This document shows positions 1,128 to 43,441 of a stretch of DNA of 64,000 bases, piece after piece; the stretch's first letter is position 1, and every line of letters begins with the position of its first letter. The notes beneath the pieces are model-generated. The model had not been told where the DNA came from and did not search any database. It saw only the letters and a list, made by a program, of their open reading frames with translations. This stretch comes from a virus, in IMG/VR virus record IMGVR_UViG_3300028114_000011, positions 1 to 64,000 of that record, one strand, 5' to 3'. A program made the translations under genes and the position numbers.

Positions 1128-1154
1128 AAAATGGATAAGAAAAAACTTATCCAT
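1124..1154 (-). terminator. Rho-independent terminator of the large RNA
   Basis: A perfect 9-bp stem ATGGATAAG/CTTATCCAT (1131-1139 with 1146-1154), a 6-nt loop, and seven T on the minus strand at 1124-1130. It closes the leftward non-coding transcript. Confidence 0.9.
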
Positions 1155-2290
1155 CAAATTTTTTACCGGTGGCTCCATTAAAAAAAACGTTGAGATTACA
1201 CGTTTGTTGTGAGAACCTTTAGAGTCATTATTGTTTCTACTCCTATCCACTTTCTTTTGGAAAGTATTTCTCAGTGACGGTCTTTTAGGTTTACCACTCC
1301 TTGAGGTTTGAATTACTCTCATCTTACTTGACTCTTTTTGAGGATGCCTCCCCAATTCGTCCTTGCGGGACTAAAGGTTTTTTGGATAATTACACGTCAG
1401 CTTGGGGCCTTCGTGTGCAATGAACGGCTCATTACTATGTAGTCACCTTTCATCCAAACCTGACGGACACTTTTCCTTAATTTATTTTTAATTGTTATTA
1501 ATCATAATAATAAGTTTTTGTGTTGTGGATTGTCGAAGTAGTGGTCCGCCACCCGAGATGACCTATCTTTTGAACAAGTCAATACTCAACTACTCCGTGA
1601 GATATCCCTACCTCCATATTTCAAGACTACTTCGTGATAGACCTCTTGGTAGAGGTTAATCAAGGTTAATAACGACACCACTCGTACTTTAACATACCTT
1701 TCGGTTTTAAGTATCCTTTAATATTGGAAAACGCAATAATGAAATTGGATAACTTCATGTTTTGCAAATATTCCTACGGGTTATTCCTATTGGTGTTCCC
1801 ACCTCAAACAGACGACCCACATCGCCTAATCACCTAACCACTTTCCCTACAGCGTTGCCCTCGGTACTAAAGGTTAAACGGTATCCCGCTTGTGTACTCG
1901 ACCTCGATTGTCCAAAGACAACCAAGACGCAAACCATCTAACACAAATGATTCACTTTATCCCACTTTCGTGGTTTATTTTAATGGACCATACACGGCCC
2001 ATTGAACTCTTCGTTTCATAAACTTTAAAGAAAAGGGGGTTAATCTTTTATTTCAAATTTTATATGAACAATTTGTTCGTTAGAATTTCAAAGAACGAAT
2101 TAATGATATAACTATTGCGGTAATATGTTACACTTACACTTTAAATGTGAAGGACTTCTGCTTTGTTTCATACAGTTAAATGTTTGTCCCGTAGTCACTT
2201 TCCTCACATACAACAGTAGCCCTACGGACCTAGACTGTTTTAATCATCAATATTTCAATTTTTTATTTCGGACGTTTCCGATTTGTTTTA
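1155..2290 (-). ncRNA. Large structured non-coding RNA, about 1.1 kb (candidate)
   Basis: About 1.1 kb without a credible gene, visibly more GC-rich than its surroundings, bounded by a host-type promoter (2291-2321) and a strong terminator (1124-1154). The minus strand folds into many perfect short hairpins: AATGGGCC/GGTCCATT (1982-2003), CCAC-GAAA-GTGG with a GNRA tetraloop (1962-1973), ACCTCT/AGAGGT (1641-1656), GTGG-CGGA-CCAC (1541-1552), GTCC/GGAC (1359-1371) and AATGA/TCATT (1419-1433). A bulged GTCC-GTAG/CTACGGGAC helix lies near 2190-2236. The one frame with an ATG (from 1355) reads through the terminator and is not credible. Size, solitary gene form and phage context recall the GOLLD and ROOL giant RNAs, but I cannot confirm membership. 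Confidence 0.75.
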
Positions 2291-2298
2291 CAAATTTA
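2269..2298 (-). repeat. Promoter/leader repeat copy 1
   Basis: This 30-bp segment matches 2509-2538 except at a few positions. It includes the -7 element and an initial hairpin CGGA-AACG-TCCG (minus strand, 2280-2269) at the predicted 5' end of the large RNA. Confidence 0.7.
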
Positions 2299-2321
2299 AG
2301 ACATTTATTTCAATCTGTCAA
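2291..2321 (-). promoter_or_regulatory. Strong host-type promoter of the large RNA
   Basis: Minus strand TTGACA (2321-2316), 17-bp spacer, TAAATTTG (2298-2291). It matches the Bacteroidetes -7 consensus exactly and carries a full TTGACA. It points into the large non-coding RNA. Confidence 0.8.
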
Positions 2322-2338: not shown

Positions 2339-2482
2339 TTAAACATTTTCTACAAAAACTTTTATAGTTCCATAGAATTTAGCTCTTACACTTGCAAAGA
2401 CTTCATTTGAAGTATAAAGTTTTCTTCCTTTATCATCAAAGTAAAAAAAAATCTCTGTAGTGATGATTAAATCTTCACTCAT
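2339..2482 (-). CDS. Small hypothetical protein, 47 aa
   Basis: ATG at 2482 to TAA at 2339. The peptide begins MSEDLIITTEIFFYFDDKGR and ends FVENV; it is aromatic-rich with no known domain. It sits between the two copies of the TTGACA/TAAATTTG promoter, about 50 nt downstream of the right-hand one, so it has its own transcription start. No terminator separates it from the second promoter. Small size makes the call less certain, but the promoter spacing supports it. Confidence 0.6.
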   Translation of the reverse strand: MSEDLIITTEIFFYFDDKGRKLYTSNEVFASVRAKFYGTIKVFVENV

Positions 2483-2666: not shown

Positions 2667-3023
2667 GTGAAAATTTTAGTTAACGATAACGTTTTTAATT
2701 GTAAAGTTGCGGCAAACTCCGAGTCCATTCAAAAAGGTATGATGGGTAAAAAGTTTGATAGTAATTTTGATGGTATGTTGTTTATGATGCCAGATAAAAA
2801 AAATCAAACGTTTTGGATGTACGATTGTTTAATTCCTTTAGATATTATTATGATTGATGGAAATGTAATAACAAAAATTAATCATAACTGCCCTCCTTGT
2901 AATGACCAAAAAAATTGTGAAATGTTTGAGGGATTTGGAAATATTGTTTTAGAATTGGATGGGGGTATTTGTAAAGAATTGGGAATAAAAGAAGGTGATA
3001 GAATTAAAACTTCCTTATTTTAA
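2667..3023 (+). CDS. DUF192 family protein
   Basis: A 118-aa protein matching the DUF192 pattern: QKGMMG near residue 22, GMLFMM near 36, FWMYDCLIPLDIIMID near 48-63, and a closing GIKEGDRI. Family members are small beta-barrel proteins of uncertain function, usually secreted in bacteria; no signal peptide is visible here. The start is GTG, because the overlapping ATG one base out of step is followed at once by a stop. It is one of six plus-strand genes, and its stop overlaps the end of the convergent 44-aa gene. Confidence 0.85.
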   Translation: MKILVNDNVFNCKVAANSESIQKGMMGKKFDSNFDGMLFMMPDKKNQTFWMYDCLIPLDIIMIDGNVITKINHNCPPCNDQKNCEMFEGFGNIVLELDGGICKELGIKEGDRIKTSLF

Positions 3024-3154
3024 TTTTTATCAATTTTTCTTTGTAGAATATCAATAAATTTATTTCTCATATCAATTACTAAATCATTTATATTTCTAAT
3101 ACCAGATTCTGAAATAAGAAAATTTAGTTGATTTTCTGTGATGATGATTTTCAT
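3020..3154 (-). CDS. Small hypothetical protein, 44 aa
   Basis: ATG at 3154, TAA at 3020, overlapping the end of the DUF192 gene tail to tail. The N-terminus MKIIITENQLNFLISES is an amphipathic helix with ITE and ISE, so it may be a small member of the capsid-targeted set, but this is weak. The remainder is basic. Confidence 0.5.
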   Translation of the reverse strand: MKIIITENQLNFLISESGIRNINDLVIDMRNKFIDILQRKIDKN

Positions 3155-3235: not shown

Positions 3236-3841
3236 ATGAAACTTTTACTCGAAAAAGAATTGTATCTCATAAAAAAAATGATGGGTATAATATTAGAAGA
3301 AGAAGACCCAAAAACAGAAGAAGAGTGCGATAAAAAAAGAGATACCGGTACTAATTGTTATTGGGCTTACAAAAAAAATAAATGTATAACTTGCCCTGAA
3401 GGTCAACGTTTGAGTTATCCATCGGAAGAATGTAGTTCATGTGACCCTGATGATGAGGTATTTGTACCAGGATTTGGTTGTGAAAAAATTTGTGATGATG
3501 ACGAATATTTTAATAGGGACAGTGGTGAATGTGAAAAAATACCACCAGGTAAATTTTATGATGGTAACCAATTACGTGATATTGACGAAGATATTTTAAA
3601 ATTTTGGGATTTAGAAAATGAAAAAAGAGAAAAGGAAGGTAAATCAATATTAAATCCTTACGAAAAACCTGAAAGCGAAGAAGACAGGGAGGATTGGGAT
3701 GAGATTTTTAAAATGGCAAACTTTTTTGTGAATGAAGACAGGATTAACGGTAAAGAAGAGAAAATATCAATCAGAAAATGGAACAAACAGACGGAGAACT
3801 GTTTGAACAATAACACTCGCCCACCAGAGTTTCCATTATAG
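3236..3841 (+). CDS. Cys-rich protein with capsid-targeting-like N-terminus
   Basis: A 201-aa protein. Residues 1-22 form a Leu/Lys-rich helix ending GIILEEE (hydrophobic-x-Glu). Residues 29-105 hold eleven cysteines in CxxC-type spacings (TCPEG, CSSCDP, GCEKICDDD), like extracellular Cys-rich or furin-like modules. The C-terminal half is acidic and charged. No signal peptide is visible, so disulfide formation would have to follow delivery or particle assembly. Its end overlaps the convergent methyltransferase gene by 6 bp. The function is unknown; an internal-head protein is inferred from the leader. Confidence 0.75.
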   Translation: MKLLLEKELYLIKKMMGIILEEEDPKTEEECDKKRDTGTNCYWAYKKNKCITCPEGQRLSYPSEECSSCDPDDEVFVPGFGCEKICDDDEYFNRDSGECEKIPPGKFYDGNQLRDIDEDILKFWDLENEKREKEGKSILNPYEKPESEEDREDWDEIFKMANFFVNEDRINGKEEKISIRKWNKQTENCLNNNTRPPEFPL

Positions 3842-4684
3842 CTTTTCGTTTTTAATTTCTTTTATTGTTTTAAAATATTCAACTCTTGTTTTTGCAACTT
3901 CACAATAGTTTGGTGATAGTTCTATTCCTAACCATCTTCTACCTAAAACTTCAGCCGCCACCAAACTGGTACCACTTCCTGCGAAGGGGTCTAATACTAT
4001 ATCGTTTTTGTAGGATAATATCTTAATCGCCTTAGTTGGTATGTCCATCGAGAACGTAGCCTTGGTGAGTGACTTAGTATCTGCAAAGTAATTCCACTGA
4101 CCAAACACAAGTTCCATAAACTCTTTCTTATCTTGTTCTTCATACACCACTTTTTTCTTAAAGGTTCCGTCTTCTTGTTCAATATCAGTTGGGACTCCTG
4201 TCCATTGCGGTTGTCCTTTGGTCAATTTTTTTGGACTATTTTTATAAGCTAGTATCAAACACTCTTTCGGGTTATATATGTATGGTTGACTACAATTCAT
4301 CCATGAACCCCAAGCGGTAGTCTTACTTCTATGTGGAGAATCTTCAACTAAATCCACAAGACCGAACCATTTAAATCCTATAGATTTCATTACGTTCCAT
4401 ATTTCAGAAACTATAAAAACTCGGCCACCTCGGTCTTTCAAATTAATCTCGAATGGGATATTTACGCAAATTCTACCATCATCTTTTAAAACTCTAAAAG
4501 CCTGTTCTAACCATTTCTTGGAAAATTCAAGGTATTCTTCCAAATTTGTATTATCATCGTAAACATCATAATTAATGTTAACTGAATATGGCGGGCTGGT
4601 TAAAACTAAATCTATTGAATTTTCAGGAAGTATTTTCATTACTTCAACACAATCCCCATTTATTATTTTTCCTGTTTCTATCAT
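3836..4684 (-). CDS. Site-specific DNA methyltransferase (N4-cytosine or N6-adenine, beta class)
   Basis: A 282-aa AdoMet-dependent DNA methyltransferase. The catalytic motif TSPPY is at residues 29-33 and the AdoMet-binding motif DPFAGSGTS near 231-239, so motif IV precedes motif I (beta-class order). The SPPY form is typical of N4-cytosine enzymes but also occurs in N6-adenine ones. No cognate restriction gene is adjacent, so it probably modifies phage DNA against host restriction. It ends overlapping the plus-strand Cys-rich gene and follows a 32-aa membrane peptide gene by 1 nt. Confidence 0.92.
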   Translation of the reverse strand: MIETGKIINGDCVEVMKILPENSIDLVLTSPPYSVNINYDVYDDNTNLEEYLEFSKKWLEQAFRVLKDDGRICVNIPFEINLKDRGGRVFIVSEIWNVMKSIGFKWFGLVDLVEDSPHRSKTTAWGSWMNCSQPYIYNPKECLILAYKNSPKKLTKGQPQWTGVPTDIEQEDGTFKKKVVYEEQDKKEFMELVFGQWNYFADTKSLTKATFSMDIPTKAIKILSYKNDIVLDPFAGSGTSLVAAEVLGRRWLGIELSPNYCEVAKTRVEYFKTIKEIKNEKL

Positions 4685-5182: not shown

Positions 5183-5302
5183 GTGATATATATTTTACTG
5201 TGTTTCCTAAACTAAATCCTAATTCCCAAGCATCAATTACTTTGATTGCTTCATATGTATTTTCTTCCCTCCGTAGTGTTCAGGGTGATTAACTTGTTCC
5301 AT
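5067..5302 (-). pseudogene. DUF3310 gene with a one-base frameshift
   Basis: ATG at 5302 overlaps the glutamine synthetase stop as TAATG. The first 12 codons read MEQVNHPEHYGG, the diagnostic DUF3310 start. The frame then fails, with a stop after 21 codons. Stepping back one base near 5265-5268, in a GGAGGGAAG context, restores a full DUF3310 C-terminus (EAIKVIDAWELGFSLGNTVK, ISRAGKK, LEDLRKALWYLEHHIETIEQ) to TAA 5067. A missing G in a G-run, real or from sequencing, explains it best. DUF3310 proteins are small phage proteins of unknown role. Confidence 0.85.
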
Positions 5303-6423
5303 TATTCCTCTTCTCTATATTCTTTTAATAATTCATCAGCCGGTCTTGTTCCGTATTTACCATCAATATTTTTAATATCAACTTTAGAATTCATTTTCAT
5401 TGTTATTTCCATAAGTTCTTCAGCAGTATTTAAAGATTTTAAAACTTGATTAACAACTCTATAAGAATCGGCATTTGATGCTGGTCTTCTATCTTCTAAA
5501 TAACCTCTCCAATTTTCAGCAGTTGTTTTAGGAATTCTAATTGATGAGCCTCTATCCCCAACACCGTATGAAAACTTATCAATATTTTGTGTTTCGTGTT
5601 TACCGGTTAATCTCATATTATTATTTGAACCATATTCTTTTATATGGTCTTCGTGTCTTGAACCAAACGTATTAAAAATAGATTGGAAGTATTCGTATCC
5701 ACCTAAACTTCTCATTCTTTCATTTGAAAAGTTTGTATGCATTCCTGAACCATTCCAATCACCAGTAATTGGTTTTGGATGTAATACAATTTCATAGTTA
5801 AAGTTTTCAGACAATCTGTACAAGAAATATCTACTCATCCATAAATCGTCCGCAGCATTTAAACTACCTTTTGAAAATATTTGATACTCCCATTGTCCAA
5901 GAGCAACTTCCGCATTTATACCGGTAATTTCCATACCATATAACATACATAAACGCATATGTTCTTCGGCAAAACTACGACCAACAACATTGTGACCAAC
6001 ACCACAATAGTATTTACCTTGAGGGTCTAATCTAAAACCAGTATCGTGTCCTAAAAATTCATTTGTTTTTTGGTTTTTAATAAAGTATTCTTGTTCAAAT
6101 CCAAACCAAACATCACTTTGGTCTTCTATTTTTGACCTCATATTTGATTCGTGTGGTGTCCCGTCAGGATTTACAACTTCACATAAAACATAAACTCTAC
6201 TATTTTCCAAAGGAAAACTTTTTTGTGAGTAATATTTCACAGGTTTAAGAATCCTATCTGAGTTTTCAGTGTCAGCTTGCATTGTAGATGACCCATCAAA
6301 CCCCCATTCAGGAAATTTAAACTCAATGGAGTTTAAATCCATTTCTTCAACTTTAACTTTACTTCTGAGGTTAGGTTCAGGTAAATAACCATCCAACCAC
6401 ACATATTCTAATGTAACTTTCAT
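5302..6423 (-). CDS. glnII: Glutamine synthetase, type II (GSII, eukaryote-like)
   Basis: A 373-aa enzyme of about normal GSII length that would make glutamine from glutamate, ammonia and ATP. The beta-grasp N-domain has FPEWGFDGSST (about residues 36-46). The catalytic domain has WFGFEQEYF (metal ligands), GINAEVALGQWEYQI, HPKPITGDWNGSGMHTNFS (ammonium/glutamate site), DRGSSIRIP (ATP/phosphate contacts) and EDRRPASNADSY. No catalytic block is missing, so it is probably active. Some Bacteroidetes and Proteobacteria carry GSII, so acquisition from the host is plausible. It starts 4 nt inside the preceding 60-aa gene (ATGA) and is coupled to DUF3310 downstream. Possible role: nitrogen supply during infection. 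Confidence 0.95.
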   Translation of the reverse strand: MKVTLEYVWLDGYLPEPNLRSKVKVEEMDLNSIEFKFPEWGFDGSSTMQADTENSDRILKPVKYYSQKSFPLENSRVYVLCEVVNPDGTPHESNMRSKIEDQSDVWFGFEQEYFIKNQKTNEFLGHDTGFRLDPQGKYYCGVGHNVVGRSFAEEHMRLCMLYGMEITGINAEVALGQWEYQIFSKGSLNAADDLWMSRYFLYRLSENFNYEIVLHPKPITGDWNGSGMHTNFSNERMRSLGGYEYFQSIFNTFGSRHEDHIKEYGSNNNMRLTGKHETQNIDKFSYGVGDRGSSIRIPKTTAENWRGYLEDRRPASNADSYRVVNQVLKSLNTAEELMEITMKMNSKVDIKNIDGKYGTRPADELLKEYREEE

Positions 6424-41830: not shown

Positions 41831-43441
41831 TTAACAAACTCCATTAACTGTGCAGAACTCAGTGATTACACCACTATTATCAACACTATAAATTTTATTT
41901 CCGTATCTTATATAATCAATCGTCAAAGGATATAATAATGATGAATTACTATAAACTGTAACACCTGTTTGTATTTGATTAATTGAAGGGTGGGTATAGA
42001 ATATTGTTTGAACTCCAAAGTTTGTTAATTGACATCCTGGACAATTAACTGAATATGCACCATTACCTATCCAAGTATTAAATGTACCAACGAGTGGTTC
42101 AACTTGTAAACATTCTGTGCAGTCAACATATGTTGTTGCTGTTGTCGCCGTAAATCTATCTTCATTTACCACAATATAACCTGAAGGTGGAACATAATTT
42201 ATAAAGTATCCTACATAACTATAACAATTTCCGGAATAATCCCTAATTACTTCTCCTGGGTCTAGATTTGTTGGTGGATATGCTGTTTGTGTAATCATAG
42301 ATGTTGTCGTACAAGATGTGAACACAAAGTAAGTACCAGGGGCATATGTTGGTGTAGGTGTCGGCGTAGGTGTAGGTGTCGGAGTTGGTGTCGGAGTTGG
42401 TGTAGGTGTCGGAGTTGGCGCTGGACAAACAGTACATCCTGTGTACGCTGAAACAACAAGTTTAACTGTCGCGTTTGGACTAGCAGTTGTATCTTGTATG
42501 TAAGTTGCACATTTTAATTGGTCGTTAATGACACCCAAGAACGTCTGACCTGTTGTTATTGGTGTTCCTGATATATCTAAAGAACCTGAAACATAATAAG
42601 TGACGTTTTCATTACAATCTCTTAACTCTTTAACTCTAAAACATACAAAGTTTCCATCATCAATTGTAAATGTTACAGTTTCACCCGTTAAATTAATTGT
42701 TGGTGTCGGTGTTGGAGTTGGTGTAGGAGTTGGAGTTGGTGTAGGAGTTGTTCCACTAACTGTAATATCAACGGTAAACCCTGAACATATATCGGGTGTT
42801 GGTGATGGTGTCGGAGTTGGTGTGGGTGTTGGAGTTGGTGTGGGTGTTGGAGTTGGGGTTGGTGATACACATAACACATCAACTTCAAAATCAAATATAT
42901 CACAAACAGGTGTTGGTGTTGGCGTTGGAGTAACACAAGAACCTGCGTAAAATAAATCCGTATATAAATTTGGACAAGTTGATAATGTTGGGTCTTGTCC
43001 AAAGAAATAACAACCTGTTCCAGGTGCTGTACCTAAACACCATTTTGTAGGTCCTTTATAAATGTATCCCGGTTGTGTTCCACCTGTAAAAAACGGTAAA
43101 GTATTATAACTTCCCGCCACAACATAACTACCACTATATGCTGAAAAATTTACATCGTTAATTTGAACACAATACACATTTGAACAACATTCTCCCGTTG
43201 CGCAAAATGATGATGAGCAACCTGATAGTTGTTGGGTGTATATTCCGTTAGGTACAATACTTGTTGCAGTGAATCCTGAAGTGAATGCAGATACTATAGT
43301 ATAACATCCATTAACAACAACACTATCATAAGTGACACTAAAAACTGTTGTAACAGCCGATGTTGCACCGGTCCAATTTGATTGGTCCGTATAATATTGT
43401 AATCCGGGATAACAACAACTTTGTAAGAGTATATTCGCCAT
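41831..43441 (-). CDS. Virion protein with long Pro-Thr repeat tracts, 536 aa
   Basis: Cys-containing beta domains are separated by four Pro-Thr dipeptide tracts (around residues 172-180, 195-217, 233-249 and 345-370); the longest run is about 25 residues. Such tracts are extended and, in other systems, favoured O-glycosylation sites. Two glycosyltransferase genes lie immediately upstream. Probably a stalk-like fibre. The DNA of the tracts is GGTGTx-type low complexity and a likely site of length variation. Confidence 0.8.

Follow-up and report, generated by a model that had tools for sequence, protein, structure and literature searches.

A GOLLD RNA and a small pseudoknotted RNA behind an rRNA-type leader in a phage probably infecting Bacteroidota

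The window analysed here comprises the first 64,000 nucleotides of an IMG/VR virus record of 73.5 kb (IMGVR_UViG_3300028114_000011). The initial annotation had described positions 1155-2290 as a single structured non-coding RNA gene of about 1.1 kb. On the minus strand, from upstream to downstream, we located the following features:

2339 to 2482, minus strand: small conserved ORF of 47 aa, just upstream of the promoter; a neighbour and not part of the RNA
2291 to 2321, minus strand: Bacteroidota-type promoter (-33/-7), TTGACAGATTGAAATAAATGTCTTAAATTTG, of the form TTGACAG...TAAATTTG
2268 to 2281, minus strand: leader hairpin UCGGA-AACG-UCCGA, in a boxB-like position
2100 to 2250, minus strand: small independent pseudoknotted RNA, here called module A (alignment, covariation, no Rfam match)
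2243 to 2106, minus strand: core of module A covered by its covariance model
2250 to 2243 with 2107 to 2100, minus strand: outer closing helix of module A, read by eye
2087 to 2096, minus strand: boxA-like GTTCTTTGAA, containing the sole GTTCTTTGA in the 64-kb window
1599 to 2070, minus strand: GOLLD 5' domain, the cap domain by homology (alignment and covariation, 39 sequences)
1187 to 1597, minus strand: GOLLD 3' domain (Rfam RF02032 and covariation)
1130 to 1155, minus strand: intrinsic terminator, a 10-bp stem and then a T run

The comparison of the whole window with all Rfam families (to E 1) returned GOLLD (RF02032) and no other match. The hit lies at 1187-1597 on the minus strand and covers the full model (1-416) with 313.3 bits and an E value of 8e-89, the gathering score of the family being 150 bits. 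The initial annotation had proposed a giant phage RNA class, naming GOLLD among the candidates, and in this it was right; ROOL, OLE, and HEARO, which it had also listed for an Rfam check, gave no covariance match in the same scan of all families to E 1. It had further supposed that two other structured RNA loci in the window share the octamer ATCCTCAA with this one, and this part was not supported, as GOLLD is the sole RNA that Rfam identifies in the window. The octamer itself occurs 9 times in the window versus 2.7 expected in shuffles and is untied to RNA loci; we discarded it as a shared RNA signal because only one of the nine copies falls inside the GOLLD-region RNA.

The Rfam GOLLD model spans the 3' domain only, and alignment with 38 relatives extended the RNA body to about 2070. 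The window RNA resembles GOLLD (RF02032; env-38, PMC12286853) in its match to all 416 positions of the 3' domain, in the separate, less conserved upstream 5' domain (2070-1599), in its total length above 800 nt, and in being phage-encoded, the source being a virus record that also encodes virion structural and baseplate wedge proteins. Many relatives of the window RNA have tRNA genes nearby, as is usual for GOLLD, whereas the 73.5-kb record contains no tRNA gene, and no tmRNA gene either. Since tRNA adjacency is not a defining feature of GOLLD, the membership stands despite the tRNA-free record. On sequence grounds, the core of the region is a new member of this known class. Two features set the window transcript apart and are not described for GOLLD in the papers searched: its host-rRNA-type leader and the separate pseudoknotted RNA at its start.

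Then, we evaluated the structure of the RNA on 99 IMG/VR stretches collected by a 3'-domain pattern. The resulting alignment (A3; 38 cluster representatives plus the window, 1039 columns) was folded as an alignment, and covariation was measured as counts of two-sided changes relative to a strand slid by 1 or 2 columns. Among the 39 sequences, the 5' domain has 124 pairs with 95.8% of cells paired, and 80 of these pairs show two-sided changes (523 cells); for the 3' domain the figures are 105 pairs, 96.7% of cells paired, and 57 pairs with two-sided changes (464 cells). The slid-strand controls gave 34-109 such cells. The compensating base changes sought by the initial annotation are thus present in both GOLLD domains. 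Its hairpins are backed by this covariation, and its GNRA tetraloop corresponds to a GAAA loop (CCACGAAAGUGG). The fold energy of 1187-2060 has z = -4.1 versus dinucleotide shuffles. The GC content is indeed higher, at 0.37 in 1001-2000 versus about 0.31 across most of the window, a real but modest difference, with 0.39 reached at 42001-43000. The terminator at the end of the region was also found, with a 10-bp stem in place of the 9 bp given before. The host-type promoter it described is present (Bacteroidota type, 2321-2291) and lies just outside 1155-2290.

The similarity searches split the region. By blastn, single matches placed GOLLD in an uncultured phage of 634 kb (L002) and in Acinetobacter phages, and in the Flavobacterium psychrophilum phages the match was confined to the 5' tip. 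With nhmmer, we aligned the body of the region (5' and 3' domains) with L002, leaving out the 5' tip, and aligned the tip alone with phage FpV4 (L004). Region 1155-2290 therefore holds two RNAs: in place of one 1.1-kb RNA gene there is the GOLLD RNA, and 2250-2100 becomes an independent small RNA, module A.

Module A is about 140 nt long. It was found in 24 viral contigs (two patterns) and in two genome bins (third pattern), and blastn matched it in 29 records of Flavobacterium phages, a set that includes duplicates. An alignment of 19 sequences (A2) backs five helices with 30 pairs, 95.3% of cells being paired and 20 pairs having two-sided changes; the cells with such changes number 134, versus 9-22 when the strand is slid. 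Helix 1 (98.7% paired, two-sided changes in 6 of its 8 pairs) crosses helices 2 and 3 and thereby makes the fold a pseudoknot. A covariance model that leaves the pseudoknot out retrieved three loci outside the training set at 93.6 bits (L041, L050, and L089), which are near-identical copies of one module A variant without the inner hairpin. Against Rfam 15, module A had no match, the best score being 15.5 bits with a gathering score of 115.

In other phages, module A lies among tRNAs, beside phage tmRNA, or alone after a promoter and boxA; a setting in tRNA/tmRNA islands is frequent. In FpV4, a cultured Flavobacterium phage, module A (3002-3140) precedes an Rfam tmRNA (3531-3945) by about 390 nt, in a gene-free stretch of 2.3 kb. 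Judged by this genomic company, module A belongs with the tRNA, tmRNA, and GOLLD repertoire of phages. The huge-phage tRNA islands around it (L013, L018, L022, L125, and L137) contain repeated tRNA-like units of about 105 nt, GGTAGATACCAGAGGAGAAC...GTGCAAATCTAGCTCTACCAACA, with an extra inner hairpin, several of which are missed by ARAGORN. Downstream of module A in L130 and L012 there are long stretches with no obvious gene and no GOLLD match, possibly another large RNA.

For the leader, we grouped 81 GOLLD loci into 48 clusters by shared 12-mers. The motif GTTCTTT[GA]A (boxA) occurs 700-830 nt ahead of a fixed anchor in the 3' domain in 46 of the 48 clusters. By comparison, equally sized intervals next to it gave 0-3, the opposite strand gave 0, and shuffles gave 0.07. 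In 42 of these 46 clusters, a TTG-N18-24-TAnnTTTG promoter lies at most 100 nt upstream of boxA. Between promoter and motif, a stem of at least 5 bp is present in 69%, compared with 8% in shuffles; the stems vary in sequence yet stay paired (UCGGA/UCCGA, UCAGGA/UCCUGA, and CUUGGU/ACCAAG), and the loop reads AANG in the relatives. Directly upstream of the promoter, most promoter-bearing relatives encode a protein of about 50 aa with the pattern Y.Y..G....TPN..FA..RA..YGT..V[YF]VEK. A small ORF occupies this position in 50 of 72 loci and is mostly of this type (L025, L031, L043, L046, and others); the protein had no significant match in PHROG or Pfam. Further along the window, a phage glutamine synthetase is encoded at 5302-6423 on the minus strand (Pfam Gln-synt_N and Gln-synt_C).

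The combination of promoter and boxA occurs 140 times in the fetched loci: 91 sites precede GOLLD, 5 the small RNA, at least 33 a phage tmRNA (assigned by program or 5' motif), and 4 short ORFs, and among the 7 remaining sites we recognised by eye 5 tmRNA-like and 1 tRNA-like sequences. The tmRNA genes with the same promoter and GTTCTTT[GA]A leader include those of L025, L029, L036, L041, L051, and L062. We compared this arrangement with Bacteroidota rRNA leaders from PLSDB, the source entries being catalogued as plasmids and carrying 16S genes of named Bacteroidota. Four 16S leaders (Phocaeicola L147, Prevotella L159, Parabacteroides L160, and Segatella L161) carry GTTCTTTGA 144-222 nt ahead of the 16S gene and about 65-77 nt past the start of the same promoter type, with hairpin-like sequence in between. 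A Chryseobacterium leader carries the variant GATCATTGAAA, so boxA is not always identical in flavobacteria. We left out the 16S leaders of the G001 phylum, as their 16S start is not Bacteroidota-like.

At the level of sequence, these comparisons show the GOLLD leader to be of rRNA type, made of promoter, hairpin, and boxA. As in the Bacteroidota rRNA leader and in the boxB-boxA-boxC of E. coli rrn, the order is promoter, hairpin, and GTTCTTTGA, with boxA tens of bases past the promoter. The phage copies differ in preceding GOLLD, tmRNA, or the small RNA and not 16S, in having shorter hairpins and, in the window, in having the small RNA between hairpin and boxA. The loci were fetched by a pattern from the window RNA and its nearest relative, which misses divergent members, and the Acinetobacter phage GOLLD has no boxA-like motif in the fetched stretch; among the loci compared, the boxA leader is established for the GOLLD of this phage clade and not for GOLLD in general. 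The lambda nut sites (boxA-boxB, N protein) would be similar in the use of a phage boxA and host Nus factors to pass terminators; they differ in that here the hairpin comes before boxA, as in rrn, and single RNA genes are served and not early operons. By description, module A is comparable, as a small RNA often encoded near phage tRNAs, to the small stable RNAs C and D, which phage T4 encodes in its tRNA cluster and which have no known function. In E. coli, the rRNA antitermination complex needs boxA, and boxA suffices for its formation (PMC10250234). By analogy, the cassette, which in these phages almost always precedes a stable RNA gene, suggests that Nus factors act in antitermination on giant untranslated RNAs of these phages. 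No paper linking GOLLD and boxA was found in the literature searched, a weak negative given that few subscription papers were covered.

It could be argued that GTTCTTTGA owes its conservation to the structure of GOLLD, through pairing with CTCAAGGAG in the 3' domain, and not to a role as boxA. Indeed, the consensus fold pairs 2094-2088 (GTTCTTTGA) with 1304-1298, and 97.8% of the cells are paired. However, this helix has zero two-sided changes, the partner strand stays unchanged where GTTCTTTAA variants occur, and after the same promoter GTTCTTTGA also precedes phage tmRNA, module A, and 16S rRNA, all without the partner; we consider the purely structural role unlikely and read the motif as boxA. 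That the 5' element (2250-2100) belongs to GOLLD as one of its domains is also quite unlikely. A single promoter does serve both in the window and L021, with boxA between them, whereas in L005, L007, L010, L014, and L041 each has its own promoter and boxA; Flavobacterium phages and tRNA/tmRNA islands also contain the element with no GOLLD detected nearby.

Taking module A as a separate RNA, its position in tRNA islands would also fit an RNase P RNA, in reduced or permuted form, that accompanies the phage tRNAs, and we take its GAGGAAAGU to resemble RNase P conserved region I and its CAGAA..CUU to resemble conserved region V. Nevertheless, module A had no match to the RNase P models even at E 10, and the P4-like pairing shows no covariation at all and is disrupted in the Flavobacterium phage sequences, while competing helices covary. 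The relationship was rejected, alike conserved strings notwithstanding, and we regard it as very improbable. Finally, a decayed or missed protein-coding region has a negligible probability. Several ORFs of 40-106 aa exist in the GOLLD stretch, on both strands, but each is open in only 0-11 of the 38 aligned relatives, mostly with frame-breaking length changes. The conserved reading frames that would have spoken against the initial annotation were not found among these relatives, its non-coding assignment is upheld, and the covariation of module A and of both GOLLD domains backs the RNA reading.

We are fairly confident that the locus is a stable-RNA unit of a phage probably infecting Bacteroidota, with an rRNA-type leader, module A, and GOLLD, a putative Nus antitermination, and a putative RNA cage; promoter type and leader are what point to Bacteroidota as the probable host. 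Host RNA polymerase would start at about 2285 on the minus strand, would transcribe the leader hairpin, module A, boxA, and then GOLLD itself (about 880 nt), and would end at the terminator (1155-1130, minus strand). In E. coli, NusB/NusE and other Nus factors are brought to the polymerase by boxA RNA and make it Rho-resistant. If the same applies here, the boxA RNA would load NusB/NusE and further Nus factors on the polymerase, which would then resist Rho and complete the long untranslated GOLLD, and GOLLD may fold while tethered to the polymerase, as rRNA does. The GOLLD env-38 structure solved by cryo-EM is a 14-mer RNA cage with 5' cap and 3' ring domains (PMC12286853), and by homology the window RNA would build such a cage with its 5' domain as cap and its 3' domain as ring. 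Concerning abundance, a Lactobacillus brevis prophage has a GOLLD that builds up during lytic growth and is dispensable, and the most abundant transcript of phage ICP1 is a non-coding RNA of GOLLD-like size (both reported in PMC7567579).

A broader proposal, to which we give even chances, is that Bacteroidota phages keep GOLLD, tmRNA, and module A behind copies of the host rRNA leader, diverting NusB/S10 antitermination to make and fold these RNAs, and that module A is a new class working with the phage translation RNAs. The host-rRNA boxA before GOLLD provides a concrete hypothesis, namely that GOLLD would be made by the rRNA antitermination machinery. Furthermore, promoter plus boxA can serve as a sequence flag for stable RNA genes in Bacteroidota phages, and here it led to phage tmRNA genes. 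Module A is a new, covariation-supported pseudoknotted RNA, and its members in cultured Flavobacterium psychrophilum phages (the FpV4 group) would make laboratory study possible.
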